Assembly: GCA_001275005.1 (NCBI GenBank)
Contig: JWZX01002043.1
Location: 1 to 28,215 of the forward strand
Reading direction: 5' to 3'
DNA length: 28,215 nt
DNA from: Chrysochromulina tobinii
Lineage: Eukaryota; Haptophyta; Prymnesiales; Chrysochromulinaceae
The notes under the pieces were generated by a model, which was given only the letters and a program-made list of their open reading frames with translations, made no database searches and had not been told where the DNA came from. Made by a program: the position numbers and the translations under genes. Within the stretch, counting starts at the first letter, position 1. Each line of letters starts with the position of its first letter. Positions 1,016-27,277 of this stretch are shown here, in pieces.

Positions 1016-4000
1016 ATGACTTTGACGATTCACCTGGTGCCGCACAGCCATACGGACCCTGGTTGGTTGCAGACAGCCGATCGCTACTACGGCATGGAGG
1101 TGAAGCCTATCCTTTCCGGCGTCATCGGAGCACTGGAGGCAGATGGCAACTTTACGTTTTCATGGGCGGAGACGTGCTTCTTCGCGCGCTACTATGCCGA
1201 GCTGAGCGTACGGCGGCAGGCAATCGTGCGTGCGCTCGTCGCCTCTGGTCGACTCGAGTTTGCTGGTGGTGGCTGGGTGCAGCACGACGAAGCTCTGACC
1301 TCGGTTGGCGGCATCCTTGAGTCCATGACAGAGGGGCACGCATGGTTACAGTCGACCTTTGGCGTGCGGCCGCAGGTTGGGTGGCAAATTGATCCGTTTG
1401 GGCACTCCGCCGCAAGCGCAGCTCTCATGGCTCGTATGGGATTGCGAGCTCTCGTCATCAACCGGATTCACTACAGGCTCAAGGAGCGCTGGCGATCGTT
1501 TCGAGAACTTGAGTTCGTGTGGAAGGCGGGCGCACCGCAGCTCGGCGGCCTCGGGGGCACTCAAGGCATTCACACCCACGTGCTTCACACCCACTACGCC
1601 TCTCCCCGAGGCTTTGACTTTGAGTCGCGTCGCACGCCGGGTGAGCCTCCCTCATTGCATGCTGATTGCCTCCCTCATTGCATGCTGATGGCCTCCCTCA
1701 CTGCATGCGCAGCCTCCCTGCCGCAAGTGGAGCTCGAGCAGAAAGCGCGCGAGTTCATCGCGTTTGCCACGAAGCGCGCGCAAGCATACCGAACGCGCCA
1801 CGTCATGATTCCCCTCGGCGACGACTTCCGATGGAAGAATGCCCTTGGAGCTGCCTCTGCTTGGTCGCGGCTTGCAGCGTGGGTCAACGGGCACATGCAA
1901 GGGGCTGAAAGGCACCCGGGTGAGCCGATGCGCATAGCATGCTGATGGCCTCCCTCATCATTGCAGATTGCATGCTGATGGCCTCCCTCATTGCATGCTA
2001 ATGGCCTCCCTCATTGCATGCTAATGGCCTCCCTCATTGCATGCTGATGGCCTCCCTCATAGCATGCTGATGGCCTCCCTCATTGCATGCCTCGCACCCA
2101 GGCGAGCAGTTGCGTGTCCTCTTCTCAACGCCCTCACGCTACTTTGCCGCGGCGTACTTTGAGAAGGCCGCGCTCCCCACGATCTCGTACTCTGGAGATC
2201 TGCTCCCCTACGCCGACGATGACCACTCGTACTGGACGGGCTTCTACGGCACTCGGCCGGCGCTCAAGACGGCGCTGCGGCGCGCCGAGGCGGCGCTCCA
2301 CGCGGCCAACTGGCTCGTCGTCCTCGCGCATGCAAGTGCTCATCACGGCGTGGTCCGTTGGCTCGCCTCTCTCGAGGGGGAGGAGCGCCGTGACGAGCAC
2401 TTGCATGCCGCGTTCGAGACGCTCACGCAATGTCGCCGGGCTGTGGCGTTACTACAGCACCACGACGCGATCACGGGCACATCTCGCACCCAGGTGGTGG
2501 CAGGAGCGCCTCCCTGAGTGCATGCGGATGACCTCTCTCATTGCATGCGGATGACCTCCCTCATTGCATGCTGATTGCCTCCCTCATCGCATGCAGATTG
2601 CCTCCCTCATCACATGCCTTGCACGCAGGTGGTGGCAGACTATGAGAAGACACTGCGTGACGTCATCTCGAAGGCACGCAAGCTGGCTGCCACCGCGGCT
2701 GCAATGTTGCTCGCGGGCGCTCCACTGCAAGAATTCCCCACCGAGTTCGTCGAAAGGCGGCTGCCTTCAGTGTCGCACCACGTCGACCACGCACCACCCG
2801 CGAGCACGGTGCCTCTGATCCTGTTCAACCCGCTCCCAACACCTCGCTGCGCGCTGGTGGCGATGAGCCGCGCATGCGCTCAGGACGGCGCTGTCGAGTG
2901 CGCCGACGCGTCCGTGCTCGACGATCTCGGGCGCGAGATTCCATCTGCACGTCTGGCCGAGCCGTCGGACGTGGCCGAGCTCGTCCAAATTAGGAACGTC
3001 GGGCATGGCGCCATGCCGAGCACCGATCCATTAGTGCGCGTGGCCTCCAAATTAGGAAGTCCGAGCACCGATCCCTCGGAGGTACAGGTGGCCTTCCGTG
3101 CCTGTGTGCCCGGCCTCGGCCTCGCGACGTATTTCGTGTCGCCAGCACGAGCTGCAGCCTCAGTCGCCACCACGACTACCACTGCCTCCTCTCAATCCTC
3201 GTCTGCAGCAGCCGCACAACCCTCGGTTGCAGGCAGGCTGCCTCGTATGGAAGTCTGGGGCGGCTCGGTTGCAGGCCCGTCGCGGCCGGTTCTGCATGGC
3301 GGGTGCACCGACGTGCACCTCGATGGCAGCTCGGGCCTGATGCGTGAGCTGTCCTTCGGCTGTGCTGGTGAGCCGAAACTCACTGATTGCCTCCCTCAAT
3401 GCATGCTGATGGCCTCCCTCATTGCATGCAGGTGAGCCGAAGCTCGCCCTGCGGGTGCATACCTCACTCCTAGCCTACAGCACAGACAAGTCCGGCGCCT
3501 ACATCATGAGGCTGCTCGACAAGGCGCCGATGGCGCTGAGTGACGTGGCGCGGCAGGTGTCGTTGGAGCGTACGCGCCTCTTCGAGCAGGTACGGAGCAC
3601 GGGCCCTCATTGCATGCTGATGACCTCCCTCATTGCATGCTAATGACCTCCCTCCTTGCGCGCCTCTTCGAGCAGGTACGGAGCACGGGCCCTCATTGCA
3701 TGCTGATGACCTCCCTCATTGCATGCTAATGACCTCCCTCCTTGCGCGCCTCTTCGAGCAGGTACGGAGCACGAGCCCGGGCCACTTCACAGTGACCACC
3801 CGAGTGCATCACGCGAGCGGCGGGGTGCCCACGACGGCGCCGAGAGGCGGGGCGGACGACTTCCAAATTAGGGACAGCGAGCATGAGGCCGCGGTGGAGA
3901 TGGACGTGACAGTGTACGCCGCGCGCAATCAAGAGGTGGTCTTGCGCGTGCAGAGCGGGCTGCTCTCCGCCGTGACAAGCACGATGGCTTCCAAATTAGG

Positions 4001-4754
4001 GACAAGCTTCCACACGCACGATGGCTTAGCGTGGCGCCGACGAGGGCCACCCCCGGGTATGGACCGTACTCCCTTCCCCGCTGCCGCCTTCTTCCCCACA
4101 GCCGTTGGCGCAGCTCTGCGGCAGGCTGGCAACGGCACAGGGGGCACGGGCGCCCACCACGGCGCTCACCACGGCGCCCCGCAGCAACTGACGCTGCTCT
4201 TCGATCGCTCCGTTGGCGCTGCGAGGGTGGGCGACGGCGGTCTCGAGATCCTCCTTCATCGCTCGCTGGGGCAGGTGTGATCTCCCTTGATTGCCCTTGA
4301 TTGCCCTTGATTGGCACACTCGAGATCCTCCTTCATCGCTCGCTGGGGCAGGTGTGAGCTCCCTTGATTGCCCTTGATTGCCCTTGATTGGCACACTCGA
4401 GATCCTCCTTCATCGCTCGCTGGGGCAGGTGTGAGCTCCCTTGATTGCCCTTGATTGCAGGACGACGGCCGTGGGCTGATGAGACCTGCAATCGACTCTG
4501 GCCCGTCCAATCTCAAGATTTGGTTCGTCTGGGGCCACCTGTCCACGAGGCATCGGATGAGCCTCACCGCACGCATCTTCGGAATGCAAGCGCCCCTTGT
4601 CGTTCTACGGGGCGAGTGCGCCAAGGGGACGCCCACCACGGCGCCCAACTCGGCGCCCGCCACGGCGCCCCTCTCGCCTGATGAGCAGTCCGACGAGTGC
4701 GAGCGCGCTCGGTGGAGTGTGAGCTACCAGACGGCGGTAAGCCCGCTTGATTAG
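1016..4754 (+). CDS. GH38 alpha-mannosidase (Golgi mannosidase II-like), seven exons
   Basis: A glycoside hydrolase family 38 enzyme, which removes alpha-mannose from N-glycans in the secretory pathway. Exons by phase matching: 1016-1640, 1713-1919, 2102-2493, 2629-3367, 3432-3589, 3762-4274, 4461-4754, giving 975 residues. Visible signatures: HSHTDPGWL at residues 10-18 (zinc ligands His and Asp of the HxD type), QIDPFGHS with the predicted nucleophile Asp at about residue 126, IPLGDDFRW, HHDAITGT (zinc His), SGAYIM, and QLTLLFDRS followed by GDGGLEILLHRSLGQDDGRGL. The first in-frame ATG is at 1016 and leaves almost nothing before HSHTDPGW. No signal anchor is seen, so a 5' exon may be missing. 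About 90 residues follow DDGRGL, where animal homologues have roughly 180, so the terminal beta domain looks cut short. Translation stops at TAG 4752-4754 just beyond a GTAAGC donor at 4737. Every intron is made of minisatellite. Confidence 0.92.
1641..1712 (+). repeat. Mannosidase intron 1, GCATGCTGATGG minisatellite
   Basis: A 72-bp intron from GTGAGC to GCATGCGCAG, containing units of about 23 bp of the form GCATGCTGATGGCCTCCC. Its length is a multiple of three and it has no stop, so the frame reads through if it is retained. The exon join FESRRTP-ASLPQVELEQ leads into the conserved IPLGDDFR block, which supports splicing here. Confidence 0.75.
1920..2101 (+). repeat. Mannosidase intron 2, minisatellite with degenerate flanking repeat
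   Basis: A 182-bp phase-1 intron filled with repeats of the GCATGCTGATGGCCTCCC type, including CTAAT variants. The bases around the donor (GCACCCGGGTGAGC) resemble those around the acceptor (GCACCCAGGCGAGC), as expected if the exon edge was duplicated long ago and has since diverged. Splicing restores GEQLRVLFSTPSRYF. Confidence 0.75.
2494..2628 (+). repeat. Mannosidase intron 3, flanked by direct repeat CAGGTGGTGGCAG
   Basis: A 135-bp phase-0 intron. The 13-bp sequence CAGGTGGTGGCAG spans both splice junctions, at 2491-2503 and 2626-2638, with further similarity upstream. Between the copies lie GCATGC repeats with CTGAT. Splicing gives TGTSRTQ-VVADYEKTL, in agreement with the family alignment I know for this region. 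Confidence 0.82.
3368..3431 (+). repeat. Mannosidase intron 4, 64-bp duplication unit
   Basis: A phase-1 intron exactly one duplication unit long. GGTGAGCCGAAACTC at the donor is repeated as GGTGAGCCGAAGCTC at the acceptor, 64 bp downstream. The interior has GCATGCTGATGG repeats and ends in GCATGCAG. Splicing gives AGEPKLALRVHTSLLAY. Confidence 0.85.
3590..3761 (+). repeat. Mannosidase intron 5, two tandem 86-bp units
   Basis: Three copies of the exon edge CGCCTCTTCGAGCAG|GTACGG occur with GT at 3590, 3676 and 3762, exactly 86 bp apart. The intron therefore runs over two identical units. The middle copy is an AG directly followed by GT, which is a zero-length exon or recursive splice site. 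The filler is GCATGCTGATGACCTCCC/GCATGCTAATGACC repeats. Confidence 0.9.
4275..4460 (+). repeat. Mannosidase intron 6, tandem 77-bp units with CCCTTGATTG filler
   Basis: The exon end CTCGAGATCCTCCTTCATCG through GGGGCAG|GTGTGA is repeated with GT at 4275, 4352 and 4429, exactly 77 bp apart. The filler is a 10-bp repeat CCCTTGATTG. The intron ends in TTGATTGCAG at 4460. Splicing joins LHRSLGQ to DDGRGL, a conserved junction in GH38. Confidence 0.9.
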
Positions 4755-4871
4755 CCTCCCATTGCATGCTGATGGCCTCCCTCATTGCATGCTGATGGCC
4801 TCCCTCATTGCATGCTGATGGCCTCCCTCATTGCATGCTGATGGCCCCGGGCTGCCTCCCTCCCACATTAG
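4755..4871. repeat. Intron-type minisatellite at the junction of two incomplete genes
   Basis: About four copies of the 23-bp GCATGCTGATGGCCTCCC unit follow the mannosidase stop. They end at the acceptor CCCACATTAG that precedes the first b5-reductase exon. The upstream GTAAGC donor at 4737 is phase 0, whereas the downstream acceptor needs phase 2, so a simple fusion transcript would be out of frame. Confidence 0.75.
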
Positions 4872-5784
4872 GTACATCTTCAACACGGACATCTTGCAGC
4901 CGAAGAGCGCTGTGAATGGCGGTGTGAATGCCGACTCGCTCACGACGTTCACGCACACGCCCTCGGGGGAGAAGAAGCTCTTCGACACAATCGGCTTCAT
5001 CGCCGGCGGCTCGGGCATCACCCCCGTGCTCCAGGTGCGATCTCCCTTGATTGCCCTTCATCGCCGGCGGCTCGGGCATCACCCCCCTTTCTCCTGGTGC
5101 GATCTCCCTTGATTGCCCTTGATCGTACTGGATTGCCACTCATGAGCTTCGTCATCGGGCATCACCCCCGTACTCCAGACGTGCCATGCTCTCGTCGCCA
5201 ACGCGGCGCGAAAGTGCTCACCACGACGCCCCCTCCACTTCCCCACAGGTATGCCATGCTCTCGTCGCCAACGCGGCGCGAAAGCTGAAGATCTCGATCC
5301 TCTTCGCGAACCGGACTGTGGAAGACATCCTCTGCAAGGATCTCCTCGATGAGCTCGCAAAGGATCCACGCGTGACGGTGATTGCACCGTGATTGCACCC
5401 TGATTGGATCTCCTCGATGAGCTCGCAAAGGATCCACGCGTGGCGGTGATTGCACACTGATTGCACACTGATTGCACACTGATTGGACCCTGATTGGACC
5501 GGAGTGCATCGTGAATGCATCCTGAGTGCATGCTGAGTGCATGCTGATGGTCCCGAATGGCGTCGTGCATGCAGGTGTGGTACACCGTTGACGTGCAGCC
5601 AGAGAATCAGCCATGGAAATATTCGGTTGGCTTCGTCAACCGGGAGATGATCGAGGCGCACCTGCCAAAACCGGCCGAGAAGACGGTGATCTTCATGTGC
5701 GGCCCGCCTCCGATGCTCAACTTTGCATGCAAGCCTAACCTCGAGAAGGCAGGCCACATTGCTGCGAACGTGCTCTACTTTTAG
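4872..5784 (+). CDS. NADH-cytochrome b5 reductase, 3' half only
   Basis: The C-terminal NAD(H)-binding half of a cytochrome b5 reductase, which passes electrons from NADH through FAD to cytochrome b5. Exons: 4872-5034, 5249-5377 and 5575-5784, about 166 residues. Motifs: [14 protein letters not shown] (nucleotide-binding GGxGITP), [50 protein letters not shown] (CGPPPM) and an aromatic C-terminus VLYF. The FAD-binding half, with its RxY(T/S) motif, is not found upstream in the window. The first exon starts in phase 2 with no compatible donor nearby. This may be a broken gene, a recombinant or an assembly misjoin. If intact elsewhere it would be a normal membrane-associated reductase. Confidence 0.9.
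5035..5248 (+). repeat. b5-reductase intron with two nested exon-edge duplications
   Basis: A phase-0 intron containing a copy of the upstream exon end (CTTCATCGCCGGCGGCTCGG) at 5056, 61 bp after the original, plus a degenerate third copy at about 5147. It also contains a 32-bp copy of the downstream exon start (GCCATGCTCTCGTCGCC) at 5183, 70 bp before the real exon. TTGATTGCCC repeats lie in the first part. The second part has the GTGCTCACCACG cassette and the CCCCACAG acceptor. A relict acceptor CTCCAG sits at 5178. Confidence 0.85.
5378..5574 (+). repeat. b5-reductase intron with 68-bp duplication of exon end
   Basis: The exon end GGATCTCCTCGATGAGCTCG through CGTGACG|GTGATT at 5338-5383 is repeated 68 bp later (5406-5451) with few changes. 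The filler is an 11-bp GATTGCACACT repeat carrying CTGAT, followed by GCATGC-type units. The acceptor is CGTGCATGCAG at 5574. Splicing gives PRVT-VWYTVDV. Confidence 0.85.
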
Positions 5785-7573: not shown

Positions 7574-7620
7574 CGTCGTCGCAAAAAGAAAGGAGATCTC
7601 ACCGGAAAACCCGGGACCCA

Positions 7621-7637: not shown

Positions 7638-7648
7638 AGGTCGTTCAC

Positions 7649-13500: not shown

Positions 13501-16500
13501 CGCTGGCCACCAAGCCCGAGGCGCCGCTGGCCACCAAGCCCGTGGCGTCCGTGCCCGAGGCGGCGCTGCGCGAGTCGGCGGCAGCGCCCGCGACAGAGCC
13601 CGCGACCGCGCCCTCGTCGGAGGCGGCAGCAGCTGTCCCAATGATCGACCCGATGGTCGACCCAATGGTTCTGTCCCCCGGCGGCGGGTTTGGCATGGCG
13701 GCGAGACGTCGAAGCATGGGCACACGGCGCACGACGCCCGAGACGGCGCCTGAGAGCAGCAGCTACGTGCGCTTCGAGGCTGGGCACGAGCACGAGGACG
13801 AGGGCGAGGACGAGGACGAGGAGGTGATGGCCCAGCAGGCGGCGGCGGCGAGCGCTGGCCGTGGCATGCCAGCAGAGGCTCCGGTCGGAGGCTCGCTCGC
13901 TCTGCCCACAGTAGCTTGGCGCAATCTCCTGGCGGAGCTCGTGGCAATCTTGAAGGACGCTGCCGAGTTGGCGGACTGCTTGCGGCATCCGGCCTCCGCC
14001 ATCGCCTCCCGCGTTGCCTCCGCCGCCGCCACGCGCGTTGCCTCCACCGCCGCCTCGCGCGTTGCCTCCACCGCCGCCTCGCGCAACGTCTCCGTCGCCA
14101 ACTCGCGCAACGTCTCCGCCGCCGCCTCGCGCGCTGCATCTGTAGGTGCTTCGACCGCGGGCTCTCCGATCGCCGACGCCGAAGCGGCCGCAAACGCCGC
14201 CGCCGACGCCGCTGCTGACGCGACCGCATACTGGGCAGGGCTCGTGCGGCAGTCCAACCCTCTGGCAAGCACGCGGGCGGTGGTGGCCGTTCACGCGGGC
14301 TCCAAGACCCCACAGGCCCTTCCACAGCCCAAGGGGAGCCCGACCGCCTTCTCGCCGGGTGTGAATGTGAAGGGTGCTCCATCCAACGGCAGCTCGCCCG
14401 CCTCGTCTGATGGCGTCGGGCCGACTGGAGGCACGCCGACTGGTGGAACGCCGCCGCCGCAGCCGCAGCCGAAGGCGGAGGAGGAGGAGGCCCAGCAGAA
14501 GGAGGAGCCGGAGGCTGACGCGAAGGCTGTGGCGGGCGCGGCGGGGGAAGCCGACGCAGCCCTCGCGGAGTGCAGTGCGCGTGGCCTGTGGCCGTGGTCG
14601 TCTCCGAACTTGAGTGGCTCCGGACCGGTCGGTTCCAAGTATGGTTCCAAAGCAGCGGATGCCGAGAGCCCCACTGCCGAGGCGGCGGCGGCCGCTGGAG
14701 CCGTTGCGGACGAGACCCTTGCCGATGAGGTCGGCGCCGATGAGGTTGGCTCCGATGAGGTTGTCCTGATCGCCGCCGATGCCGCCTCTGCTCTGAGCGA
14801 GCGGCTGCACCTGTTAATCCTTCGCGTGGTCGAGGCGCTCCAGCAGCAGCAGCAGGAGGAGGAGGAGGAGCAGGGGCAGGGGCAGGGGCAGGGGCAGGGG
14901 CAGGGGCGGGCAGAGGCCCTCGCCACCGACATGCAGCTGCAAGGCGCGCCGCTCGCCGAAGCGGCCTCCTTGCTACACAAGTTCCTTCACGGACGCTGCG
15001 CCGAGGGCAGCAGCGGAGGGGGGGGCAGCGCTCAGTACGGCGCGTCGCGGCCGTTGGACGGCGCGGAGCCGATGGCTGAGGCGCTCACGGCCTTTGGCGA
15101 CTTTCGGTTTGGCCACGACGAAACGTTTGACGAAACCCTGGGGGTGTACGACGAGTTCGAGGGCGTTGTGGAACCAGCGACCCCGGCCGCCGCACCGAGC
15201 CCCGCGGCCCCGAGCCCCGCGGCCGCCACAACCGCCCCCGCGCCGACCCCTCCGGCCATCTCCACCGCTGCCCTCTTTCCAATCCTCGGCAGCGTTCACA
15301 GCAGCGTTCACAGCAGCGGCCTGTGCAGAAGCCTGAGCAGCGGCATGAGCAGTGGCATGAGCAGCGGCATGAGCAGCGGCATGAGCAGCGGCATGAGCAG
15401 CGGCATGAGCGAGGCCTACCTCGAGGCCTTCAGCGAGGCTTTCGCGGAAGCCCAAGCCCAAAATGGCCAGCACGAGGCGCATGCAAGTGCTCACCACAGC
15501 GCCCAAATTGGCAAGCACGAGGCGCTTGGCGATGTCGACTCACTCGTCGGGGCGGCTCTGGGCGCGGCATTCGGGGCGGCGTTCGGGGCAACACAGCCCA
15601 GCTTCGCGAAGGGGGATCGCGCTGTCGTGGACGCCTCAGGCGGCGCGTCGGTGCACGGAGGCGGCGCCGTCGTGGGCGCGTTCTCGTCGGAGTTGCTCAG
15701 CCCCGTTGGCGTGATGGGATCACTGGGCGACGCCGACGAGGGTGCCGACGAGGGTGGCGACGAGGGTGGCGACGAGGGTGGCGACGAGGGTGGCGACGAG
15801 GGATCGTATGTGCCATTCTGCCTGGGGACGACAGCAGTGCCGGATGCGATGGGGTCGCTCGATGCCGTCGACGCGTCGCCATATCCGCCGGCGATGGCGG
15901 CGGCGGCGGAGGAGGAGCTGCCTGAGGCATCGGCGGCGGCGGAGGAGCTGCCTGAGGCGTCGGCGGCGGCGGAGGAGCTGCCTGAGGCGTCGGCGGCGGA
16001 GGAGGAGCTGCCTGAGGCATCGGCGGCGGCGGAGGAGGAGCTGTCGCAGGCGCCGACGGCAGCGGTGGCCGTTGAGGAGGCGCCCTGCATGCAAGTGCTC
16101 ACCGCAGCGGCGGTCGTTGAGGAGGCGCCCTGCATGCAAGTGCTCACCACAGCGGTGGTCGTTGAGGAGGCGCCCTGCATGCAAGTGCTCACCACAGCGG
16201 TGGTCGTTGAGGAGGCGCCCTGCATGCAAGTGCTCACCACAGCAGTGGTCGTTGAGGAGGCGCTTGCCTTGCCGGCGTCTGTGGAGGATGCGGCTGCGGC
16301 GGACGTGCCGGCGTTTGTGGAGGAGGCGGCGGACGTGCCGGCAATTGCGGCGGACGAGCCGGCAATTGCGGCGGACGTGCCGGCAATTGCGGCGGACGAG
16401 CCGGCAATTGCGGCGGACGTGCCGGCAATTGCGGCGGACGTGCCGACGGCGTCTCAGGAACCAGCTGCATGCATGCCGACGGCCGTGGCCGCCGAGACGA

Positions 16501-16790: not shown

Positions 16791-17567
16791 AGAGAGGGCG
16801 GGGACGGCAACACTCTCTCGGCCAGATCTCGGTCAGATCTCGGCGGGAAGACATTCTGATCTCGACTAGATCTCGGTACAGTCGACGGTGCAGGGGTAGA
16901 CTCGGGGGGCAAACAGGCCGGGGCGAGGCGACGGCCCAGAAGGCCTGGGAGGGGCCTGTGGGCGCTGTCCCGGGCGTGGCGGCGGCCCAGAAGGCCTCGG
17001 GGGCGTCGTCCCCCGCATCATGCAGGCGGATGGGGAACCGCGCGCGAAGTCACGGAGACAGGCGAGCATGCAGGCGAGAGCAAGCGCATTCGATAGGCTT
17101 CGGATTAGTTGTACCGTCGTGATCTGTGTTCGTGGTAACTTCGTCTTCGACATCGGCCCGGGGCGCGGGGGCGGGCACGCTCGTGAGCAAGGGCCACTCA
17201 TCAAGGGCGGGAGTCTGTGAAACGAGTTTGGAGTTACTCATTAAGTTACTCATACTGATTCCAGCATGTTCCAGACGAGACCGAGGGCAGGGGAGAGAGA
17301 TGAAAGTGACAAAAGTAACGGCTAACGCCACTCGCCAGGAGCGCACATTTCCATCCGCGTCACATTGCTCAAGATGATACTTCTCAACCTGACGAGACTG
17401 ACGCTGACCGTGCTCCCATAATCGAACGGAGCGCAAGCCGAATTACTAAATGCATTGCGAATTACTAGCCGAATTACACAAGCGTTCGGCTAGTAATTCG
17501 GCTAGTAATTCGGACAGAATTGCGCGTGAGAGAGCGCGTTCCGAGATATAACGTTTACTTTTTCCAG
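16791..17567. other. Noncoding stretch upstream of the propeller gene
   Basis: No convincing coding region. It contains a small cluster of AGATCTCGG motifs (16824-16877), GC-rich direct repeats around GGCGGCCCAGAAGGCCT (16925-17000), and an AT-richer end with a strong hairpin. The polypyrimidine-AG TACTTTTTCCAG at 17567 looks like a splice acceptor, so a 5' exon of the next gene may lie in this interval, but I cannot identify it. Confidence 0.45.
17458..17512. repeat. Perfect 19-bp inverted repeat (hairpin)
   Basis: The arms CGAATTACTAGCCGAATTA (17458-17476) and its exact reverse complement (17494-17512) are separated by 17 bp. The arm motif also occurs partly outside the hairpin, at about 17439. 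It lies about 60 bp upstream of the first ATG of the propeller gene. It is much more AT-rich than its surroundings. Confidence 0.9.
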
Positions 17568-20259
17568 GATTATAATGGGAGCGGATTGGGCAGTCCAGGC
17601 GCGCGCGTCCGGCTCCCAAGGCTCCGGCATCGCGTACACGGGTGCGGGAGGGGCTCTCGTGACGGGCGACTTCTACGGCGAGGCCTCATTCGGCTCGACG
17701 TTCCTCATAAGCCGAGGCAGTTACGACGCGTTCGTGATGCACGTGGCGGCATCTGGCGCCATCGACTGGGCCATCCAGGCGGGCGGCACGTCTGATGACG
17801 GCGGCTTCGGCATTGCACACGATGGCGCGGGAGGTGCTCTCGTGACGGGCTACTTCGGCGGCGAGGCATCGTTCGGCTCGACGTCCCTTATAAGCCGCGG
17901 GGATTACGACGCGTTCGTGATGCACGTGACGGCATCGGGCGCCATCGACTGGGCCATCCAGGCGGGCGGCACGTCTTTCGACGGCGGCTACGGCATCGCG
18001 CACACGGGCGCGGGGGGTGCTCTCGTGACGGGCTATTTCTACAGCGAGGCATCGTTCGGCTCGACGTCCCTCACAAGCCGCGGGGAGTCCGACGTGTTCG
18101 TGATGCACGTGGCGGCGTCGGGCGCCATCGACTGGGCCGTCCAGGCGGGCGGCACGTCTGATGACGGCGGCTACGGCATCGCACACGATGGCACGGGAGG
18201 GGCTCTCGTGACGGGCTACTTCAGCGGCGAGGCGTCGTTCGGCTCGACGTCCCTCACAAGCCGCGGCAGTTACGACGCGTTCGTGATGCACGTGGCGGCG
18301 TCGGGCGCCATCGACTGGGCCATCCAAGCGGGCGGCACGTATGATGATCGCGGCTTCGGCATTGCACACGATGGCACGGGAGGTGCTCTCGTGACGGGCT
18401 ACTTCTACGGCGAGGCATCGTTCGGCTCGACGTCCCTCACAAGCCGCGGCAGTTACGACGCGTTCGTGATGCACGTGACGGCATCGGGTGCCATCGACGT
18501 GTTCGTGATGCACGTGGCGGCGGCGGGCGCCATCGACTGGGCCATCCAAGCGGGCGGCACGTCTGATGATCGCGGCTTCGGCATCGCGCACGATGGCACG
18601 GGAGGGGCTCTTGTGACGGGCTACTTCTACGGCGAGGCATCGTTCGGCTCGACGTCCTTCACAAGCCGCGGCGTGCAGGACGCGTTCGTGATGCACAATG
18701 CGGCATCGGGCGCCATCGACTGGGCCGTCCAAGCGGGCGGCACGTCTGATGACGGCGGCTACGGCATCGCGCACGATGGCGCGGGCGGTGCTCTCGTGAC
18801 GGGCTACTTCACCGGCGAGGCATCGTTCGGCTCGACGTCCCTCACAAGTTTCAAGGGATCAGCAACTTGCTTCGTTGCATCTCTCATTCCGCCGCCCCTT
18901 CCACCCCTGCTTCCACGCCCGCCGCCAGCGCTTGATGCTATGGCACCGCCACCAGGCTCTTCATGGACACTACCTTCGACGACAGCTACGCCTGACATGG
19001 TGGCGCCTCGCTTCGACGCGACGGCAGCCCTCACCTCCGCGATTGCACTTGCACTTGCGCTGCTTTTGGCGTGCGGCTATCGCCGCTATCGCCGCCTGGC
19101 CGACAATTTTCGAGTGTCGCGTGACCGCGCCCAGCTCGACCTGCACATACTCGAGCACCGCTTCATGCAGCACACATATCCGCAATGCGAGGACTTGCCT
19201 GGAGCTCCGCGCCCGTCTGTATCGCCACCCAACTCGATCCCGCCCGGTCCTCCCTCCTCTAGTGGCAGTAGTCATCGCGGCAGCAACGGCTTCGGTGCTG
19301 GGAGCGTGATCGACGAGGGGACACTCGCTGCCATCTTCATGGCGCCCTCTCGGGAAGTGGGGCTGGCCAAGCTGCGCCCTGATCTCGACAGGGCTATGCC
19401 CAAGCAGAGCGCTGACAGCTTCGAGGTGTGCTGTGGGAAGCTGTACGTGCTCTCACGCGTGAGCAGCAAGATGGCGCCAGACGCATCGTTCGCCAAGGCA
19501 CAAGAGATCACCGATGCCCTGAGCCGCGAGTGCTCGACGGCTAGCCGCACGGCAGCATCGCTCGTCCTCGGCCTCAAGCGCATCTTCGAGGAACGGATCC
19601 TTCCGAATGGTGCGCTTGCTCATGTCATCGAGCATGACTTTAGGCTGCCCGCCGGCGAGGTAGGGGCGCTTCTCGACCGGTACCGTTGGCCAGACGACGC
19701 CAAGCGTCGGCACGTGATGATCATCTTGCGCAAGACCTTGGAGGCGGTCTTGGAGTTCCGCGGCGCAGTGGATGCCGCCGTGTTGGGCAATGGGAGCGCC
19801 GTGTTGGGCAGTGCGAGCCTTCAGGAGGTTGGGCAGTGGGAGCGCCGTGTTGGGCTCACTGTGCAGCATTCGCACGGCCGTTTGATCCAGACCATCGAAG
19901 GGGTGCTCGACGAGCATGCGAAGCGTGCGGATCCAACGGAGGCGCTGGGTGGGCGCATCTTCAGAGCGGTTGCGGACTGTGCGATTGCGCATGCGGCGGC
20001 GGCGAAGGCGGCGGCGAAGGCGGCGGCAGAGGAAGCGGCGATTCGCAGCGGCGAAGGCAGAGGCTGCGGCTGCGGCGAATCATCAGCGGAGGCAGCGGCG
20101 ATGCGTGCTCTAGCAGGGCTGCAGATCTCGCCTCAATCTCCCCTTATCTCGCCTGATCTCGCGGCGCTGCAGATCTCACCTCAATCTCCCCTGATCTCGC
20201 CTGATCTCGCGGGTCTGCAGATCTCGCCTCAGCCTCTCCCACCCCCGCCGCACCCGTAA
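17568..20259 (+). CDS. Membrane protein with seven propeller repeats and a cytoplasmic tail
   Basis: The frame is open from 17568, with the first ATG at 17575 (894 residues to TAA-type stop 20257-20259). Residues about 1-430 are seven tandem repeats of about 61 residues with the core DWAIQAGGTSDDGG, GIAHDGAGGALVTGYF and EASFGS, matching the SBBP-type beta-propeller repeat. Seven copies suggest one closed seven-bladed propeller. A Pro-rich linker follows, then a membrane helix at about 481-500 (AALTSAIALALALLLACGY) with RRYRR on its inner side. The cytoplasmic part of about 390 residues has an alpha-helical region (LAAIFMAPSREVGLAKLRP, ASRTAASLVLGLKRIFEER, VMIILRKTLEAVLEF) that I do not recognise. 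It ends with an Ala-rich helix and three LQISPQSPLISPDL repeats. No signal peptide is seen at the ATG, and an acceptor-like AG sits at 17567, so an upstream exon probably supplies it. A cell-surface binding role is inferred. Confidence 0.75.
17575..18870 (+). repeat. 183-bp coding tandem repeat, seven copies
   Basis: Seven units of about 183 bp encode the propeller blades and are almost identical at the nucleotide level, for example GGTGCTCTCGTGACGGGCTA in most copies. One extra 39-bp partial duplication at about 18497-18535 inserts AIDVFVMHVAAAG between blades five and six. The identity suggests recent expansion or gene conversion. Confidence 0.9.
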
Positions 20260-20539: not shown

Positions 20540-21935
20540 ATGGCAGCGAAGGTCGGCTCGGTCATGACCTTCGCCGTGGGCGGCAACCATGTGACGGGCA
20601 CGGTCAGGTACATCGGCCCGCTTGCCGAGGATGTCACGGGTGGAACGTGGCTCGGCGTCGAGCTCTCCGAGCCCATCGGCCGCCACTCGGGCCGACGCTA
20701 CTTTGCGTGTGCGGAGCGGCACGGCCTCTTCGTCAGGGCTTCGGCGGCGGCCGCGGCGATGGTCGCGCACTTGACTTCTCCACCGCGAGGTCCGATCTAT
20801 ACGCAGTACGAGGCTGGCATCAAGACCGCCGCAGCGGCGTCTGGCGTGCCGTTCGTGATGCCTCCGCCGCACCGGCTTGGCGCGGGGGACGCACTGATCC
20901 TGATCGACTTGCAGTACGACTACTTGCCGGGCGGCGCCTTTGGCGTGCCCGAGGGCAACGACGTGCTCGCGTCGCTCGCCGGGCTGCTCACGGCAGGCGC
21001 CGCCGCGGGCGCCACCGTCGTGTGCACGCGCGAGTACCACCCAATTGACCATGCCTCTTTCCGAACAGCGAAGCCAGTCGCCGGCCCGTTCCCGCCGCAC
21101 TGCGTGCAGGGGAGCCGCGGCGCGCGGCTGGCGGCGCCGATCGCCGCCGCCGCCGCCGCCGCGCGCAAGGCCACGCCCGATCGCGTCGAGATCGCCTTCA
21201 AGGGCTTCCACAGGGATGTCGACTCGTTTGCATGCTTCGAGTACCCAGGCGCTCTCGCCAAGGGGCGCTTGGTGCAGCGCCCATCGCCAGATCCAGGCGC
21301 GCTGCTGGGCTGGACAGGGAGCCTCGTGATGCGCTCGTCGGCCCTCGATGAAGACATCAATGCGCCGCCGGACGTACTCGCACACGCCGCTGGCGGAGCC
21401 CTCACACTGGCTGAGCGGCTCGGACCTGTGAAGGTGCTCTTCCTTGCCGGCTTGGCGCTCCATTCCTCAGCATGCAAGTGCTCACCACGGCGCCATCGCC
21501 CCACAGGTGCTCTTCCTTGCCGGCTTGGCGCTCGACTTTTGCGTCCTCGACTCGGCGCTCACAGCGCGCGCAAAGGGCTACCAGGAGGTATACATCATCA
21601 GCGCCTCTGGTCGCCCCTGAGTGCCTCGTGATGACCTCTGATGAGCTCTGAAGGCCTCTGAGTACCTCTGATGACCTCTGATGACCTCTGAGGACCTCTG
21701 AGGACCTCTGAGGACCTCTGATGACCTCTGAGGACCTCAGAGGACCTCAGAGGACCTCTGATGACCTCTGATGACCTCTAATGACCTCTGATGGCAGGTG
21801 TATATCATCCTCGATGCCTCGCGCGCTCTGCACGTCGCGCCTGTGGGGTTCCTGACGCCGCCCGCCGAGCTGTGGGCAAAGCTGCATGCAGGTGGGATCA
21901 AGCTGTGTATGCTGGCCGACGCCTTCCCGGGCTAA
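20540..21935 (+). CDS. CAP-Gly domain fused to nicotinamidase
   Basis: Three phase-0 exons, 20540-21433, 21507-21587 and 21798-21935, encode 370 residues. Residues about 8-70 resemble a CAP-Gly domain (GTVRYIGPLAEDVTGGTWLG, VELSEPIG, RYFACAERHGLF), but the usual GKNDG loop reads GRHSG and a few residues are missing after it. From about residue 112 comes an isochorismatase-fold nicotinamidase, which hydrolyses nicotinamide to nicotinate and ammonia in NAD salvage. It shows ALILIDLQYDYLPGGAF (catalytic Asp), TREYHPIDHASF (metal-binding site, with Glu where Asp is usual), PFPPHCVQG, EIAFKGFHRDVDSF (catalytic Lys) and GLALDFCVLDSALTARAKG (catalytic Cys). The Cys is encoded only in the second copy of a duplicated segment, so removal of intron 1 is needed for the triad. 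Ends CMLADAFPG. The CAP-Gly part would suggest microtubule or plus-end association. That link is inference. Confidence 0.88.
21434..21506 (+). repeat. Nicotinamidase intron 1, 73-bp duplication with cassette
   Basis: GTGCTCTTCCTTGCCGGCTT and seven more bases (21434-21460) are repeated exactly at 21507-21533. Between them lie GCATGCAAGTGCTCACCACG (from 21470) and the acceptor CCCCACAG. The intron equals one 73-bp unit. If unspliced, the frame shifts and the catalytic Cys is lost. Confidence 0.92.
21588..21797 (+). repeat. Nicotinamidase intron 2, TGATGACCTC repeats
   Basis: A 210-bp phase-0 intron made mainly of a 10-bp TGATGACCTC/TGAGGACCTC repeat, ending TGATGGCAG. The donor side GGTATACATCATC resembles the exon start GGTGTATATCATC, a diverged exon-edge duplication. 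Splicing gives AKGYQE-VYIILDASRAL, as expected for the family. Confidence 0.88.
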
Positions 21936-22333
21936 TGGATCTTCGAGTCCACCTGAGCGCATGATGAAATTAATGGTCATGATGGAGCCCTGCAAAGGTG
22001 CCTATCCGTAGTATCTATCGGTCGCGGCTGACTTCTCACGAGCGCGGCGAGTCTGGACGGTCGTGGACGGAGTCGGCTCGGACGCGTATCGAGAGCGGCG
22101 CCTCTGCTCGGCAGCGGGCATGCGGGCTCGTCTCGCGACGTCAGTGTCCGGCCGTCGCAGGCCGGGCGTCTTTCTCTCAAACTCAATTGTATATAGCGGG
22201 GGACCGGGGATGCGACTAGTCGATAGTATTTGTGAACGCCGTAGCTGAAGGCGTACCTTGGGTAGAAGTAGAAGCTAGATTTAAAGAACTGTAAAGAGCC
22301 ATCAACCTAAGATTGTCCGCCCACTTTCCTTTT
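21936..22333. other. Noncoding stretch
   Basis: No gene identified. A weak TATA-like TGTATATAGC lies at about 22188-22197, and the sequence becomes AT-richer towards 22290. It contains the 3' UTR of the nicotinamidase gene and intergenic DNA. Confidence 0.4.
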
Positions 22334-22930
22334 TCAACTGGTTGCACGTGGAGAGTCGTACTCGTTGTGAGGACCAAAGGGGTCCGTCAAGTCGGTCGTG
22401 CCTGCACGGCATACATGTGGGCGGCGACGAGAGATGAGACGGGTGAGTCGAGCAGCGAGCACAGCAGGGGCGTCGCGCGACGAGCGTGGGCGAGTCGCGG
22501 CGCGTTGCGGCGTCGGCGGAGATGCGCGCCACGCCGGCCTACCGCGATTCCCAGCGACCAGTTGGTGCAGGCAGTAGTAGATGCGATCCGTGAGAACCTC
22601 ATCCGCCCGGAGCGCCGTGACGATGGCCATCTGGTTCTGGATGCCACTGATTCTGTGCTCGCGCAGGTACTTTTGGACGGATTTGACGGCGTGCACCTCG
22701 CCATCAGCAGTGTCGACCTTCTGCGCAGGCCGTGGGAGCTCGGGAAAGGCCGTGAGAACAGTGAGGCCGGCGCGAAGAGGGCGAAGAGGCAAGCGCGCCT
22801 TGCGGAGCTCGGGAAAGGCCGGTCCCAGGTCACCAAGCTTTCTCCTCAAGTGCGGCGTCATCTTCGACATGCCATCCACAACAGGATCGTAGTCTGGCAC
22901 CCATTTGGCTGGGTTCGAGAGCTGCGCCAT
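22334..22930 (-). CDS. Hypothetical protein, doubtful gene model
   Basis: A 198-codon frame, not recognised. The first part (MAQLSNPAKWVPDYDPVVDG, LRRKLGDLGPAFPEL) and the middle (VDTADGEVHAVKSVQKYL, ISGIQNQMAIVTALRADEVL, TDRIYYCLHQLVAGNRG) have protein-like composition. The last 60 residues are Arg-rich and probably noncoding. CGGCCTTTCCCGAGCTCC occurs twice, 69 bp apart (22736 and 22805 on the plus strand), the same spacing as intron duplications elsewhere, so an intron probably lies around 22730-22850 and the true structure is spliced. I could not find a phase-consistent donor and acceptor pair. Confidence 0.35.
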   Translation of the reverse strand: MAQLSNPAKWVPDYDPVVDGMSKMTPHLRRKLGDLGPAFPELRKARLPLRPLRAGLTVLTAFPELPRPAQKVDTADGEVHAVKSVQKYLREHRISGIQNQMAIVTALRADEVLTDRIYYCLHQLVAGNRGRPAWRASPPTPQRAATRPRSSRDAPAVLAARLTRLISRRRPHVCRAGTTDLTDPFGPHNEYDSPRATS

Positions 22931-22984
22931 TTATCGGCCTGCCGATTCGGGCAAGTTTACGAGGCTCCGCACGCGCGCAATTCA

Positions 22985-23100
22985 ATTCAGTTCAGTTCAG
23001 TTAAATCGACTCCCGTCCTCCTCTGCTGGCTTCCGGAGCACATTCGATAGGCTTCCGTATGGTTGTCTGTTGTTTATGTAGTAACTGAACTGAACTGAAC
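22985..23100. mobile_element. Small inverted-repeat element with 10-bp target duplication (MITE-like)
   Basis: About 116 bp bounded by terminal inverted repeats ATTCAGTTCAGTTCAGTTA (22985-23003) and TAACTGAACTGAACTGAAC (23082-23100), matching at 18 of 19 positions. It is flanked directly by the repeat GCGCAATTCA at 22975-22984 and 23101-23110. That arrangement is typical of a non-autonomous DNA transposon. The element is too short to encode a transposase. A target duplication near 10 bp would fit Mutator-like elements best, but the superfamily is not certain. Confidence 0.75.
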
Positions 23101-23250
23101 GCGCAATTCACACCAACGCGAACAGCCGGTCGAAACAGACGGTGAATGTTTAGTTTCGCAACGTCAATGCACGAAACTGCTTCGGCGGTGTGCTAAGCCG
23201 CCCGCCGCCGCCGACGGACGAACCCGCAGCGCTCGCAAGGAGGACAGCAC

Positions 23251-25767
23251 ATGGACGACGAGGATCAGGCCAAGGTCAAGATCAAGGTTCTGCAGGCGAG
23301 CCTCGAGTCGGCGGTGAACGAACTCAAGAAGAAGACCGAGGAGGCGGCCGCGCGCAGCAAGGAGCTCGCGGAGCAGAAGGATCTCGTCGGCCAGATCGAC
23401 AAGAAGCTCAACGCGCTCGCCAAGGAGAACAAGCTGCTCGTGCAGGCGAACGACCGCTTCAAGCGCGCGCGCGACGAGATGGTCAGCTGCGAGGTGCAGA
23501 CGGACGCCGACGCGCTGCTCGTCGCCGCCGAGGCGGCGCGCGACACGGCAGTTGCCGCACTGGCGGAGGAGGAGAAGCGGAGCGCCAGCGCGCTCGAGGC
23601 GGCGCAAGCGGAGACGGCGCGCCGGGCGGCCGACTGGGAGGCGGCCAAGGGACGCGCCGTCTCGCAGCTCAAGGCACTCCAGGCGGACAAGGCCGATCTC
23701 GCGGCCAAGCTGCAAGCGGCGCAGGAGGCGGCCAAGGCGGAGGCGACGGCGGCGGCGGAGGCGGCGGCCGCGCGTGAAGTGGAGGCGCGCGAGGCGGCAG
23801 CGAAGGCGGCGGCGGTGTACGCGACGCAGCTCGATGCTCTCATGGAGCGCCTGCGTGAGAAGGAGGCCGCGCAGGATGTGGCCGCAGATCAAGCTCGCGA
23901 GCTACGGAGACACTTGAACCAAAAGCTCGCGGATGGCGCGAGCGCGGCGGCGGCGCAGGCGGCGGCGGAGGCGGCTCTCAAGGAGGAGATGGCGGCGCTG
24001 CGGGCGCAGATGCAGCGCAGTGAGGAGGAGCACTCGAGGCATCGAGCGGCCTCAGAGGAGGGGGCCAGCGAGCTACGTAGGAGGCTGCAGCAGAGCGAGC
24101 TGGAGAAGACGCAGCTGGCCAAGCTCAAGGCGGAGCTCTCGGTGCGCTGATGACCTCTGATGACCTCCCTGATGACCTCCCTGATGACCTCCCTGATGAC
24201 CTCCCTGATGACCTCCCTGATGACCTCCCTGATGACCTCCCTGATGACCTCCCTGATGACCTCTGATGGCCCTCTTCGGCGCACAGGACATGCTCTCCTC
24301 GGCGGCAGCTGCCAGGCAAGCCCAGACCGATCAACTCGCGGCCATGTCTGCGGCGAACAAGGCGGCACAGGAGGTGGCCAAGGAAGCGACTGCGAGGGAA
24401 AAGGCGACGAATGAAAAGTATCGCGCGCTCAAGGACACTGCCAAGGATACGGCTGCGAAGGAGAAGGTGAATTCTCACGATTGCTCTCTGAAACCCCTCC
24501 CTGATGACCTCTGATGACCTCTCTGATGACCTCCCTGATGACCTCTGATGCTCTATGAAACCCCTCCAAGTGCCGTCGGATTGCCCTCTGATGACCTCCC
24601 TGATGACCTCTGATGACCTCTGATGACCTCCCTGATGACCTCTGATGCTCTATGAAACCCCTCCAAGTGCCGTCGGATTGCCCTCTGATGACCTCTGATC
24701 GCCTCTGATCGCCTCTGATCGCCTCTGATCGCCTCTGATCGCCTCTGATCGCCTCTGATCGCCTCTGATGACCTCTGATGGCCTCTGATGGCCTCTGATG
24801 GCCTCTGATGGCCTCTGACGATTGCGACTGAGAGCATCCTTGATGACCTCTGAGGACCTCTGATGACCTCTGATTGATCGATCTCTGATGACCTAATTGC
24901 GACTGAGTGCATCCTTGATGACAGGATGCGGTGGCGCGATGGCGAGATGCGATCTCCCGCGAGCAAGCGGCGTTAACGAAACTCGCCGAGGCCGAGGCGC
25001 AGCTCAAGCTCGAGCGGGAGATCGCATCTCGGGAGATCAGGGCGGCTGGGGCGGCGGGAGCCATCACGGGAGATCGCATCTCGGGAGCCGCCTCTACTGC
25101 CGCCCTCACGCCATCAGCCATGCCAGCGCCGTCGTGGGCGCCGTCCGCGCCGCCCGCGCCGCCTGTGCCGCCAGCCGATGAGCTGCTGGCCGCAGCCGCG
25201 GCCACAGCGGCGGCAGCGGCAGCCGTGGTGGCGGCGGCCAAGGCGGCGGCGGCGAAGGAGGTGACAACAGCAGCAGTAGCAGCAGCTGCTCCTGCCGCAC
25301 CCTCTGCGACTGCACCAACTGTAGTGCCGTCAATGGTCTTCGGTGACGTTGGCGATTTGAGCAATTTCACTTCCCAGCCTCCCGCCGCGCCGCCGCCGCC
25401 CGCCACGACGACGCGTGGTGCTGAGGGCTTCCCCGATTTGGGCGACGGTTTCGTCAGCTTCGTCTCGGCTTCGTCTCCGGCGCACAGCAGCAGCGTCAGC
25501 CTCGTCAGCGCCGCTGCAGGTGACGAACCCGCACTGCCGCCGCCGTCCGCGCCCTTTGATCAGTTGGCGTGGGCAGCGGTACCTCCGGCGGCGATGCCGA
25601 CAGAGGATGAACAGTTAGCGTGGGCTCTTCGAGAATCGAATCGAATGGCCGCCGAGACGGCGCCTCCGCCGCTCGAGACGGCGCCTCCGCCGCCATCGCC
25701 GTGGGTAGGCGCGCCCGGTACGGCGCTCAGCACGGCGATCTTCGACTCGAATGCGTTCGGCTCAGAT

Positions 25768-25820
<53 letters not shown>

Positions 25821-27277
25821 TGCTGGGCCGGCTGATGAGGGACTGACGAAGGAGGAGGCACGCATCGGATTGCGTCTGATTGCGTCTGATTGAATCCGAT
25901 TGCGTCTGATTGAATCTGATTGAATCTGATTGCGTCTGATTGCGTCTGATTGAATCGGATTGAATCGGATTGAATCTGAGTGCGTCGGATGGCGTCGGAT
26001 GGCAGGCGCGCTTGGCGCTCGTCCAGTTCTATCGTGAATTCAACCCGACCAAGCTGCACGAGATTGAGACGATCCTAAATAGGTACGAGGGCTCCTATAC
26101 GCGGCCGTGCTCGCATGCAAGTGCTCACCACGGCGCAAAATCTCCCCACAGGTACGAGGGCTCGTACACGGCCATGTTCGCTCGTCTCCGAGTCAAGTAC
26201 CAGCATGCGGCCGACGAGGGCCGCGCCCAGCCACCTCCTCCGCCGCCGCCGCCGAGCACTGGGCAGCAGCCCGCGTCCGAAGCGGGCGCGCCGTCGGCGG
26301 AGCCGGCTTCGTCAAAGGCACTGCCGTTGCATGCGGCCAAGGAGCAACTTGGCGGGAAGCTATCGAGCCTCTTCGGTGAGTGCCTCTTGATTGCGTCTGA
26401 TTGCGTCTGATTGCGTCTGATTGCGTCTGATTATGATTGCGTCTGATTATGATTGCGTCTGATTATGATTGCGTCTGATTATGATTGCGTCTTATTGCGT
26501 CTGATTGCGTCTCGGATGATCTCTGATGACCTCTGATGACCCCTGATGGCAGGCGGCCTGAACGAGCGGCGCGAGAAGCTGCTGGAAGACGCAAAGGGCA
26601 AGCTCAAGGACGTCAAGGACCGTGTGAAGGACGTCAAGGAGTCGGTACAGGAGACGGTGCAATCGGGCGGCAGGCATGCCGCCAAGCTCGAAGGGCTTCG
26701 AGAAGGCCTTGGCTCTGTGGTGCGAGGTGTGAAGAGCGCCGTAAAGGACGTGATCCCTCTCCCCGGCCCGAGGCTACCGGCAGGCTGGGCGTGGGCGAGA
26801 GACGGCGACGGGCAGCCCTACTTTTACAACCGGTCGCTCGACGTCGTCACGTACGATGATCCGCGCGGACCCGTCGATGTCGCGACCGCCGCTCTCTCTA
26901 GCTCTGCCTTCAGCGACGGCTACGCAGAGGGTGCCCCCGCCATCCGGCCCGTACAGCTCCCAGCGATGCCAGAAAAGTTCTCGATCAAAAAGATCATCGC
27001 CGACACGCTCGCTGAGGCTGCCTCCGATGCCAGCACGGACACCTCAAGTACGGCCGCTAGGGCAGCGCCGCCACCCGCTACGCCGCCGCCGCCGAAGCCG
27101 ACGGATCTTCTCGCGCCGACGCCTGGAATGGCCTCGCCTTCCTCGGGGCCCAATTTGATGGACTTGCTCACGCCGATACGGCCGGCAGCCATGCCCACGG
27201 CACTGCCGTCCGCGGCACCGCCGGCCTCGGTGCCGGCGCTGACCGCCTCGCTGATTGATATGGAGATTCTGGAGTGA
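23251..27277 (+). CDS. Coiled-coil / UIM / WW adaptor-like protein, six exons
   Basis: Exons 23251-24141, 24287-24466, 24925-25857, 26006-26082, 26152-26375 and 26553-27277 join in phase to give 1009 residues. Residues 1 to about 390 form an Ala/Glu/Lys coiled coil (start MDDEDQAKVKIKVLQASLES). An Ala/Pro-rich region follows, then a ubiquitin-interacting-motif match EDEQLAWALRESNRM at about 584-598 and an acidic Asp/Glu run at about 639-657. Next is a short domain ALVQFYREFNPTKLHEIETI-LNRYEGSYTAMFARLRVKY (about 669-710) of a type seen in many algal and plant proteins. Lys-rich amphipathic helices (KLKDVKDRVKDVKESVQETV) come next, then a WW-like domain at about 843-873 (GWAWARDGDGQPYFYNRS with YDDP, the second Trp being Tyr). 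The C-terminus carries LIDME, a clathrin-box-like motif, and NLMDLL. An endocytic or ubiquitin-dependent sorting adaptor is a reasonable inference. Intron 3 appears to be GC-AG. Confidence 0.82.
24142..24286 (+). repeat. Adaptor intron 1, TGATGACCTCCC repeat
   Basis: A 145-bp phase-0 intron, GTGCGC to GCACAG, filled with about nine copies of a 12-bp CCCTGATGACCT unit. Splicing gives AELS-DMLSSAAAARQ. The retained frame would stop at once (TGA 24148-24150). Confidence 0.8.
24467..24924 (+). repeat. Adaptor intron 2, compound TGATGACCTC / CTCTGATCGC repeats
   Basis: A 458-bp phase-0 intron with several repeat blocks: CTCTGATGAC, CTCTGATCGC (about seven copies at 24690-24770) and CTCTGATGGC. 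A longer unit with GAAACCCCTCCAAGTGCCGT occurs at 24558 and 24654, 96 bp apart. It ends TTGATGACAG. Splicing gives KEK-DAVARWRDAISREQ. Confidence 0.82.
25858..26005 (+). repeat. Adaptor intron 3, GC-AG intron with GCGTCTGATT repeats
   Basis: No GT donor gives the right phase, but GAG|GCACGC at 25858 with acceptor GGATGGCAG at 26005 does (phase 0 on both sides). The donor context AGGCACGCATCGG resembles the exon start AGGCGCGCTTGGCG, so this looks like an exon-edge duplication using AG|GC in place of AG|GT. The filler is a 10-bp GCGTCTGATT/GAATCTGATT repeat. Confidence 0.75.
26083..26151 (+). repeat. Adaptor intron 4, 69-bp duplication with cassette
   Basis: AGGTACGAGGGCTCCTATAC at 26081 recurs as AGGTACGAGGGCTCGTACAC at 26150, 69 bp apart. 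GCATGCAAGTGCTCACCACG and the acceptor CCCCACAG lie between. Phase 2. The unit is a multiple of three and has no stop, so retention would insert 23 residues with a second RYEGSYT. Confidence 0.9.
26376..26552 (+). repeat. Adaptor intron 5, GCGTCTGATT repeats
   Basis: A 177-bp phase-1 intron, GTGAGT to TGATGGCAG, composed of the 10-bp GCGTCTGATT repeat with a 15-bp variant containing ATTATG, then TGATGACCTC units. Splicing gives LSSLFG-GLNERREKLL. Confidence 0.85.

Follow-up and report, generated by a model that had tools for sequence, protein, structure and literature searches.

The origin of new introns is an old question that has long stayed open because the footprints of intron gain decay. 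Several described systems have left footprints in the form of direct repeats. Earlier introner families have duplications of 3-9 base-pairs (bp), and the introners reported in a metagenome-assembled genome of Chrysochromulina sp. make a duplication of 4 bp and carry their own 5′ splice site (PMC9860276). Recent introns of Daphnia, ascribed to the repair of staggered breaks, have 33 repeats of 4-12 bp, and repeated rounds of breakage are proposed to lengthen them (PMC4202315). In one case, the potato RdRp gene gained an intron through a tandem duplication that crossed a 3′ splice site (PMC4974935), and Rogers and Bendich (2025) propose that direct repeats of 4-30 bp bordering introns are insertion footprints (PMC11782384). 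The subject of this report is a set of introns in a stretch of 28,215 nucleotides (nt) of Chrysochromulina tobinii, referred to as the window, many of which contain a copy of the adjoining exon edge.

The window is contig C973 of an assembly of 53.15 Mb in 2253 contigs. Three of its genes are relevant. The first is a GH38 alpha-mannosidase gene that continues as the 3′ part of a cytochrome-b5-reductase-like gene; the other two are a CAP-Gly/nicotinamidase gene and one with a WW domain. In protein similarity searches, the highest-ranking named match of the mannosidase comes from Prymnesium parvum, and one named match of the reductase is from Phaeocystis antarctica; the label cytochrome b5 reductase goes beyond the Pfam matches. 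In these genes and in others of the genome, intron starts resemble the start of their own exon 2. This own-pair similarity is real. It has its starting point at the splice site, concerns chiefly the exon-2 side and peaks where fillers are shared between introns; introns without shared fillers add little to it. The reading favoured here, with moderate confidence, is an introner-like event in which a cassette enters at a GT, a long target-side duplication is made and the intron later grows in tandem. It draws on the exon-edge copies with their register and asymmetry, on cassettes shared between introns, on the bias towards GT and on one polarised insertion.

Exon-edge copies in the window

The simplest layout consists of exon 1, a copy of the start of exon 2, a filler ending in AG, and exon 2 itself; it is seen at 21434 and, with diverged copies, at 26083 and 3368. 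The features of the window, with introns as predicted, are the following.

1920..2101, forward strand: alpha-mannosidase intron with donor and acceptor in register in diverged copies (GGCACCCGG/GTGAGC and CGCACCCAG/GCGAGC)
2494..2628, forward strand: alpha-mannosidase intron with copies at 2486-2503 and 2621-2638, 135 bp apart
3368..3431, forward strand: intron of 64 bp with a 14 nt copy of the exon-2 start (13 matches) and a 23-mer filler ending in GCATGCAG
3573..3778, forward strand: exon segment of 34 bp spanning AG/GT, in three copies with filler (86 bp unit, 2.4 times); intron 3590-3761
4242..4458, forward strand: 77 bp unit of exon end, donor and filler, 2.8 times, within the intron ending at 4460
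4995..5125, forward strand: tandem repeat of 61/62 bp, exon end and donor, inside the cytochrome-b5-reductase-like intron 5035-5248
5182..5284, forward strand: insertion of 70 bp at a 3′ splice site, with a first copy at 5182-5214 (33 bp), a cassette at 5215-5251 laid out as TGCTCACCACGACG..CCCCACAGGTA, and a second copy at 5252-5284
5338..5474, forward strand: tandem repeat of 68 bp, exon end and donor, inside intron 5378-5574
16059..16263, forward strand: in-frame coding repeat of 45 bp with a GCATGCAAGTGCTCACC core, a cassette motif inside an open reading frame (ORF)
21434..21506, forward strand: nicotinamidase intron of 73 bp, with an exact 27 bp copy of the exon-2 start (21434-21460) and a cassette at 21461-21506 (GCATGCAAGTGCTCACCACGGCGCC..CCCCACAG)
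21588..21797, forward strand: second nicotinamidase intron, with a diverged copy of the exon-2 start (10 matches in 12 nt) and an array of 10-mer filler
24142..24286, forward strand: contrasting intron of CTGATGACCTCC repeats, called by the gene finder and without an exon-edge copy in the copy test
26083..26151, forward strand: intron of 69 bp with a 19 nt exon-2 copy (17 matches) and a cassette with GCATGCAAGTGCTCACCACGGCG and CCCCACAG

The eight spacings listed in the first-pass annotation of the window (61, 64, 68, 69, 70, 73, 77 and 86 bp, the first being 61/62) are all present. Its statement that each intron extends from a copy's GT to the AG that precedes the following copy describes the spacings of 64, 69, 70, 73 and 86 bp, but not those of 61/62, 68 and 77 bp, where exon end, donor and intron start are repeated in tandem within an intron; the 61/62 and 68 bp repeats have no AG ahead of the GT of the second copy. 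The 70 bp case at 5182 is coherent, except that the three letters before the copy change (ACG versus GTA). Coherent copies are also present at 2486/2621 and, in diverged form, at 1920 and 21588. For intron 1920..2101, ungapped comparison gives p=0.012 on the left side and p=0.024 on the right side, and the gapped exon-2 test is not significant.

Introns were called with a home-made gene finder that has codon and splice-site terms and no repeat term, seeded on window exons and introns picked by eye. For the window and 20 stretches of 10 kb from the same genome, its output is 56 genes with 43 introns, 12 of which are in the window; no exon-edge copy is found in at least three of these 12 (24142, 25874 and 26376). 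The gene finder places the donor of intron 2494..2628, whose splice interrupts the middle domain of the alpha-mannosidase, 3 nt later at 2497, and it does not join the exons that flank 26083..26151. At locus L003, the intron at 1487 is read as called 18 nt too late, with GT at 1469.

Indirect signs speak for splicing of the predicted introns. Their removal raises the Isochorismatase score from 30.2 to 51.8 bits and the Alpha-mann_mid score from 59.9 to 77.3 bits, and the spliced reductase part matches NAD_binding_1 over its full length with a score of 94.9. Both nicotinamidase intron positions are read through in the proteins of 10/10 aligned relatives (from 66 matches). Two of these ten, P0130 and P0131, carry other inserts resembling unspliced introns and are therefore probably genomic. 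The reading of a protein cluster, P0121 (51 members, five contigs, source ‘ena’), extends into the nicotinamidase insert. In 34/48 introns, a word resembling the branch-point consensus precedes the acceptor, against 6/48 and 9/48 exon controls; the distance of its A from exon 2 is most often 17 nt.

At 4737-4900, an intron array of 23-mers connects the mannosidase with the 3′ part of the reductase, and this join is either an assembly chimera or a real fusion via intron repeats. A TA-rich-type motif, CCAAATTAGG, occurs four times in the mannosidase exons (2987, 3050, 3862 and 3988), and TA-rich words resembling it occur in other loci too, for example at L034 7340-7400. Tandem coding repeats of 183 bp at 17541-18899 (ORF 17575-20259) have a Pfam match to the SBBP beta-propeller.

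Similarity of intron starts to exon 2, cassettes and GT bias

For all 43 introns, positions 6-20 have an identity of 0.371 with their own exon 2, against 0.266 with others (permutation p≤1e-5). The genome-level comparison of own with permuted flank pairs, proposed with the first-pass annotation, also gives an excess. In a regular-step sample of the same genome (19 stretches of 10 kb, at steps of 112 contigs), the 25 introns have 0.325 identity with their own and 0.276 with other exon 2s (p=0.022 ungapped, p=1.4e-4 gapped), and a score of at least 11 is reached by five of the 25, where 0.58 are expected; two of these five are doubtful repeat-type introns. The filler-linked sample, made up of L032 (contig C33) and 11 other loci with 23 introns, gives 0.409 versus 0.269 (p=1e-5 both gapped and ungapped) and 8/23 copies versus 0.73 expected. 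L032 is grouped here because C33 was already among the filler matches, and it is hence not unbiased; a set of 31 introns that counts it in gives p=7.8e-4 ungapped and p=1e-5 gapped. L001 is a duplicate of part of L032 and was excluded.

Offset 0 is the highest of 41 offsets in the regular-step and filler-linked sets alike. Copies on the exon-2 side number 13/48 (1.28 expected). Fewer intron ends, 6/48 (1.15 expected), repeat the end of exon 1, and of these two are of the repeat type and one is a misplaced donor. The earlier claim that such duplication is the normal way in which introns are made has partial support: recognisable copies exceed chance in both samples, but most sampled introns lack one.

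The fillers come from a few repeat families, as had been proposed. In one type, words like CTGAT/CTAAT form arrays together with CCTCCCTC, and the filler closes with CATCAG or GCATGCAG; another type (family A) consists of GCATGCAAGTGCTCACCACGGCGCC, a variable pyrimidine-rich linker and CCCCACAG. The filler is a dispersed, shared cassette with a branch-point-like word, pyrimidines and AG, and not exon. Since copies recur on unrelated contigs and fillers are shared, a common mechanism is likely. With a family-A intron as genome query, 50 matches are listed, including the query itself. Among the other 49, 48 begin at or after query position 203, the exon copy being at 186-205, so that the overlap is at most 3 nt; 27 reach the cassette end or 1-6 nt past it, one of them spanning the whole weakly, and 22 stop inside the cassette. 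No terminal inverted repeats were noticed in the cassettes by eye, no computation having been made.

Nine distinct family-A places are found in the loci examined, and seven of them lie between direct repeats reported as 21-38 nt; no direct repeat is found around the cassette at the other two, L001 1305 and L034 6674. The repeat starts at AG/GT in four places (21478, 26121, L002 and L047) and after GTA at 5214, and no GT stands there in L010 and at L034 8104. The last of these has a spacing of 63 bp, a multiple of three, without AG, and may be an insertion of the same kind that stayed coding. A slightly altered family-A core also occurs in open coding frames (window 2327-2349 and 16059-16263, L034 8058-8158), and the 45 bp repeat at 16059-16263 belongs to a giant alanine-rich ORF. 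Tandem pairs or a triplet of family A, spaced at 73-85 bp, occur on C88, C167, C267, C791, C858, C943, C1018 and C1026, which suggests multi-unit introns with AG/GT at the unit boundaries as possible recursive splice points.

The composition of these introns bears on a Rogers-type model, in which AGGT-containing exon segments are said to become introns by tandem duplication, and which the first-pass annotation had adopted. AG/GT does lie within the duplicated exon segment at 3573-3778. The model predicts, however, an intron that is exon copy throughout, whereas in 15 chosen events the copy occupies 12-41 nt (median 22) of introns of 64-210 nt, and the AG is supplied by the filler, which comes from dispersed families. 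What is copied is a short piece, more often from the exon-2 side, and the rest is a dispersed cassette with AG, so that this explanation is very unlikely. In the 15 events, the cassette ends in AG and the exon copy starts with GT (both as predicted splice sites), and the 10 nt upstream of the copy match at just 1-6 positions. The copy is longer than 12 nt in 14/15, and shorter copies would escape the tests used.

Were the donor recruited from the target, GT would be expected at the start of exon 2 as well. It stands there in 10/25 regular-step introns (10/17 of those starting with G) and in 16/23 filler-linked introns (16/19 of those starting with G), against a baseline in which T follows coding AGG in 14.2%. 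Throughout the genome, GT comes next in 782/1157 copies of the filler end TGCCTCCCTCATCAG and in 188/214 exact copies of family-A cassettes, against 4.3% for AG followed by GT in coding sequence. The number 214 refers to exact cores with CCCCACAG within 30 nt, some of which are tandem units of one place, and the genome-wide cassette counts are not independent events, because tandem units are counted singly.

Proposed insertion, growth and spread

Under the favoured reading, a short cassette with branch-point-like CTRAY repeats or a CAAGTGCTCACCACGGCGCC core, pyrimidines and AG would enter an exon just before a GT. The insertion would copy about 12-41 nt of exon from that GT, giving exon 1, the exon-2 copy, the cassette ending in AG, and exon 2. 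The copied GT would become the 5′ splice site, while the cassette would provide the branch point and the 3′ splice site, leaving the mRNA unchanged. Later, the unit or the donor edge could duplicate again in tandem and lengthen the intron.

The polarised insertion is the 70 bp event at 5182. The reductase part has a paralogue, L051 (C2218), with 78-90% identity in aligned blocks. L051 has the intron of 5035, whose 3′ end there repeats the end of exon 1, and it lacks the event at 5182. In the window, the first copy, now intronic, still begins with ACG (T), which stands before its repeated part, and the used exon begins with GTA (V), which stands before the second; the codon has changed from ACG (T) to GTA (V). 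GITPVLQ (in one protein GITPSLQ) is followed by T in L051 and in 8/9 aligned relatives (120 listed), and by V in the window and the Phaeocystis protein. The 70 bp event is most simply derived, because L051 is without it, the relatives have T and the stranded copy has ACG. The letters GTA (5249-5251) probably arrived with the insert. This event extended an existing intron and did not start a new one.

Events of this kind also suit the explanation that no introns were gained, and that old ones grew by tandem duplication across splice sites as in potato RdRp, the exon copies being secondary. The event at 5182 extended an intron already present in L051, the 61/62, 68 and 77 bp repeats of the window are of the same nature, and intron end and exon start are duplicated together in arrays at L033 2317, L032 6996/7300 and L034 7138/7667. 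Several examples in the first-pass list are indeed later growth: L051 has the introns without the 61/62 and 68 bp donor repeats, which are single copies there, and the 77 bp array at 4242..4458 is intron growth, not birth. Growth does not account for places where the exon-2 copy abuts exon 1 with no older intron before it (21434, L034 8322, L047- 1552 and L003 917), nor for the absence of the two nicotinamidase introns from the proteins of the ten relatives mentioned above, and as the whole explanation it is distinctly unlikely.

Positions 1000-4839 of the window match C2185 close to its end (55457-59133) with 99-100% identity, after which C2185 diverges. C2185 has one 86 bp unit and one 77 bp unit fewer than the window. 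The recent activity that had been read from identical copies calls for caution, as this difference may be a recent copy-number change, an allele or a difference of assembly. The disagreement in unit number and in the following sequence speaks for an assembly artefact; many copies are diverged, however, the pattern is found on unrelated contigs, and the P0121 cluster reads into the nicotinamidase insert, so that artefact or chance is hardly credible as an explanation of the whole.

Introns also recur in other genes. The L034 intron (C239), together with its 35 nt exon copy, recurs whole on C1742 (81/86 identical) between different exons, and there the exon copy with the preceding CAG equals exon 2 of C239 at 38/38 positions. 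One unit of window intron 3590, in the array at 3573..3778, recurs in C343 (91/101 aligned columns) between LFEQ and TGGMF of a different gene, presumably RibA-like, a label that goes beyond its Pfam matches. The C343 copy holds the first 17 nt of mannosidase exon 2 and comes directly after 13 letters, CCTCTTCGAGCAG, that also precede the unit in the mannosidase; LFEQ is read there in both proteins. The exon segment looks native to the mannosidase, because it has no gap in seven aligned relatives. Both cases look like introns copied without a new duplication, in an inferred direction. Recurrence in other genes was found for 2/6 stretches used as whole-genome queries (the best 40 candidates of each being scored), and for three of the six no second exon-level copy was recognised among the best 40 candidates of each, whose matches were not fetched.

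Recurrence of this kind raises the tentative possibility of a transposase-free spread by template switching at short shared exon sequence. The growing strand would leave exon 2 after 12-41 nt, copy the 3′ end of an intron, or a whole intron, elsewhere, and return at AG/GT; the exon copy would be a backtrack and then the homology arm for the next jump. The C343 recurrence after CCTCTTCGAGCAG would be an example, and young introns would then carry the address of their birthplace gene. Partly tandem insertions have reportedly been seen in rice by Vaughn and Bennetzen in 2014, and paired nicks are said to have been treated by Schiml in 2016.

Classical DNA-transposon introners, with a transposase and a non-autonomous element, would make the long copies unusual target-site duplications. 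The cassette families are dispersed and their ends fairly constant, and a 5′ site from the duplication combined with a 3′ site on the element is a documented introner layout (PMC9860276). Yet the duplication varies from 12 to 41 nt instead of being fixed at 3-9 bp, two intron copies stand at new sites without such a duplication, and the linkers are variable, which makes this explanation unlikely. For the duplication step, we infer a staggered break, or a template switch that copies the 3′ end of an existing intron, and not a classical transposase. Staggered-break repair or template switching fits better because of the variable length, the carried-over letters and the recurrence at shared sequence.

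Several observations weigh against cassette insertion at GT. All intron counts depend on the home-made gene finder, some of its introns are probably false (L042 and L036, inside repeats), and the splice sites of the window introns are predicted. A recognisable copy is missing from most sampled introns, the branch-point-like word is found in just 14/25 regular-step introns, and the 15 measured events were selected as exon-2-side cases. Family-A linkers are variable, unlike copies of one master, and no source element or enzyme for the cassettes was identified. When the analysis starts from repeats, 14/27 non-frame repeats are AG/GT-coherent (shifted mean 5.1), a level that other dinucleotide pairs reach too, AG/GT ranking 5/256 by count; where repeat arms start, it takes places 16, 13 and 42 in three sets, and its enrichment there over the rest of the arm has p=0.049 in the 19 stretches and p=0.0067 in a larger mix. 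Repeats with both arms coding are in frame in 8/8, though the gene finder favours such frames.

Comparison with described systems

The genome seems to hold many introns with legible footprints, by extrapolation perhaps hundreds or more. These footprints show which side was copied and how far, the incoming cassette, the later growth and, in two cases, the source gene, and with them models based on transposase, break repair, template switching or reverse splicing become directly testable. A literature search found no description of haptophyte introns in which long exon-2 copies are common, most subscription journals and the supplements of the introner paper lying outside it.

These introns share features with each described system. 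Like introners, they form families of similar introns in which one splice site is recruited from the duplicated target, a layout with a carried 3′ site being among those described (PMC9860276); in the 15 chosen events, the cassette carries one predicted site and the duplicated target gives the other. They differ in that the duplication is 12-41 nt with a median of 22 in those events, instead of short and fixed at 3-9 bp, lies mainly on the exon-2 side and goes with a carried 3′ site, tandem growth and recurrence in other genes. As in Daphnia, a direct repeat of an exon terminus lies at the other end of the intron, with the start of exon 2 copied, and the end of exon 1 in fewer cases; the copies are longer than the 4-12 bp found there and are accompanied by dispersed cassette families (PMC4202315). 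In potato RdRp, too, the donor comes from the copied exon 2, and the branch site, pyrimidine tract and AG from the copied intron (PMC4974935), whereas here there are several such arrays as well as cases with no older intron before the copy. The repeats of Rogers and Bendich have a mean of 11.4 bp in 213 mixed introns, and the available text of that paper describes neither cassette families nor a polarised event (PMC11782384), both of which are found in C. tobinii.

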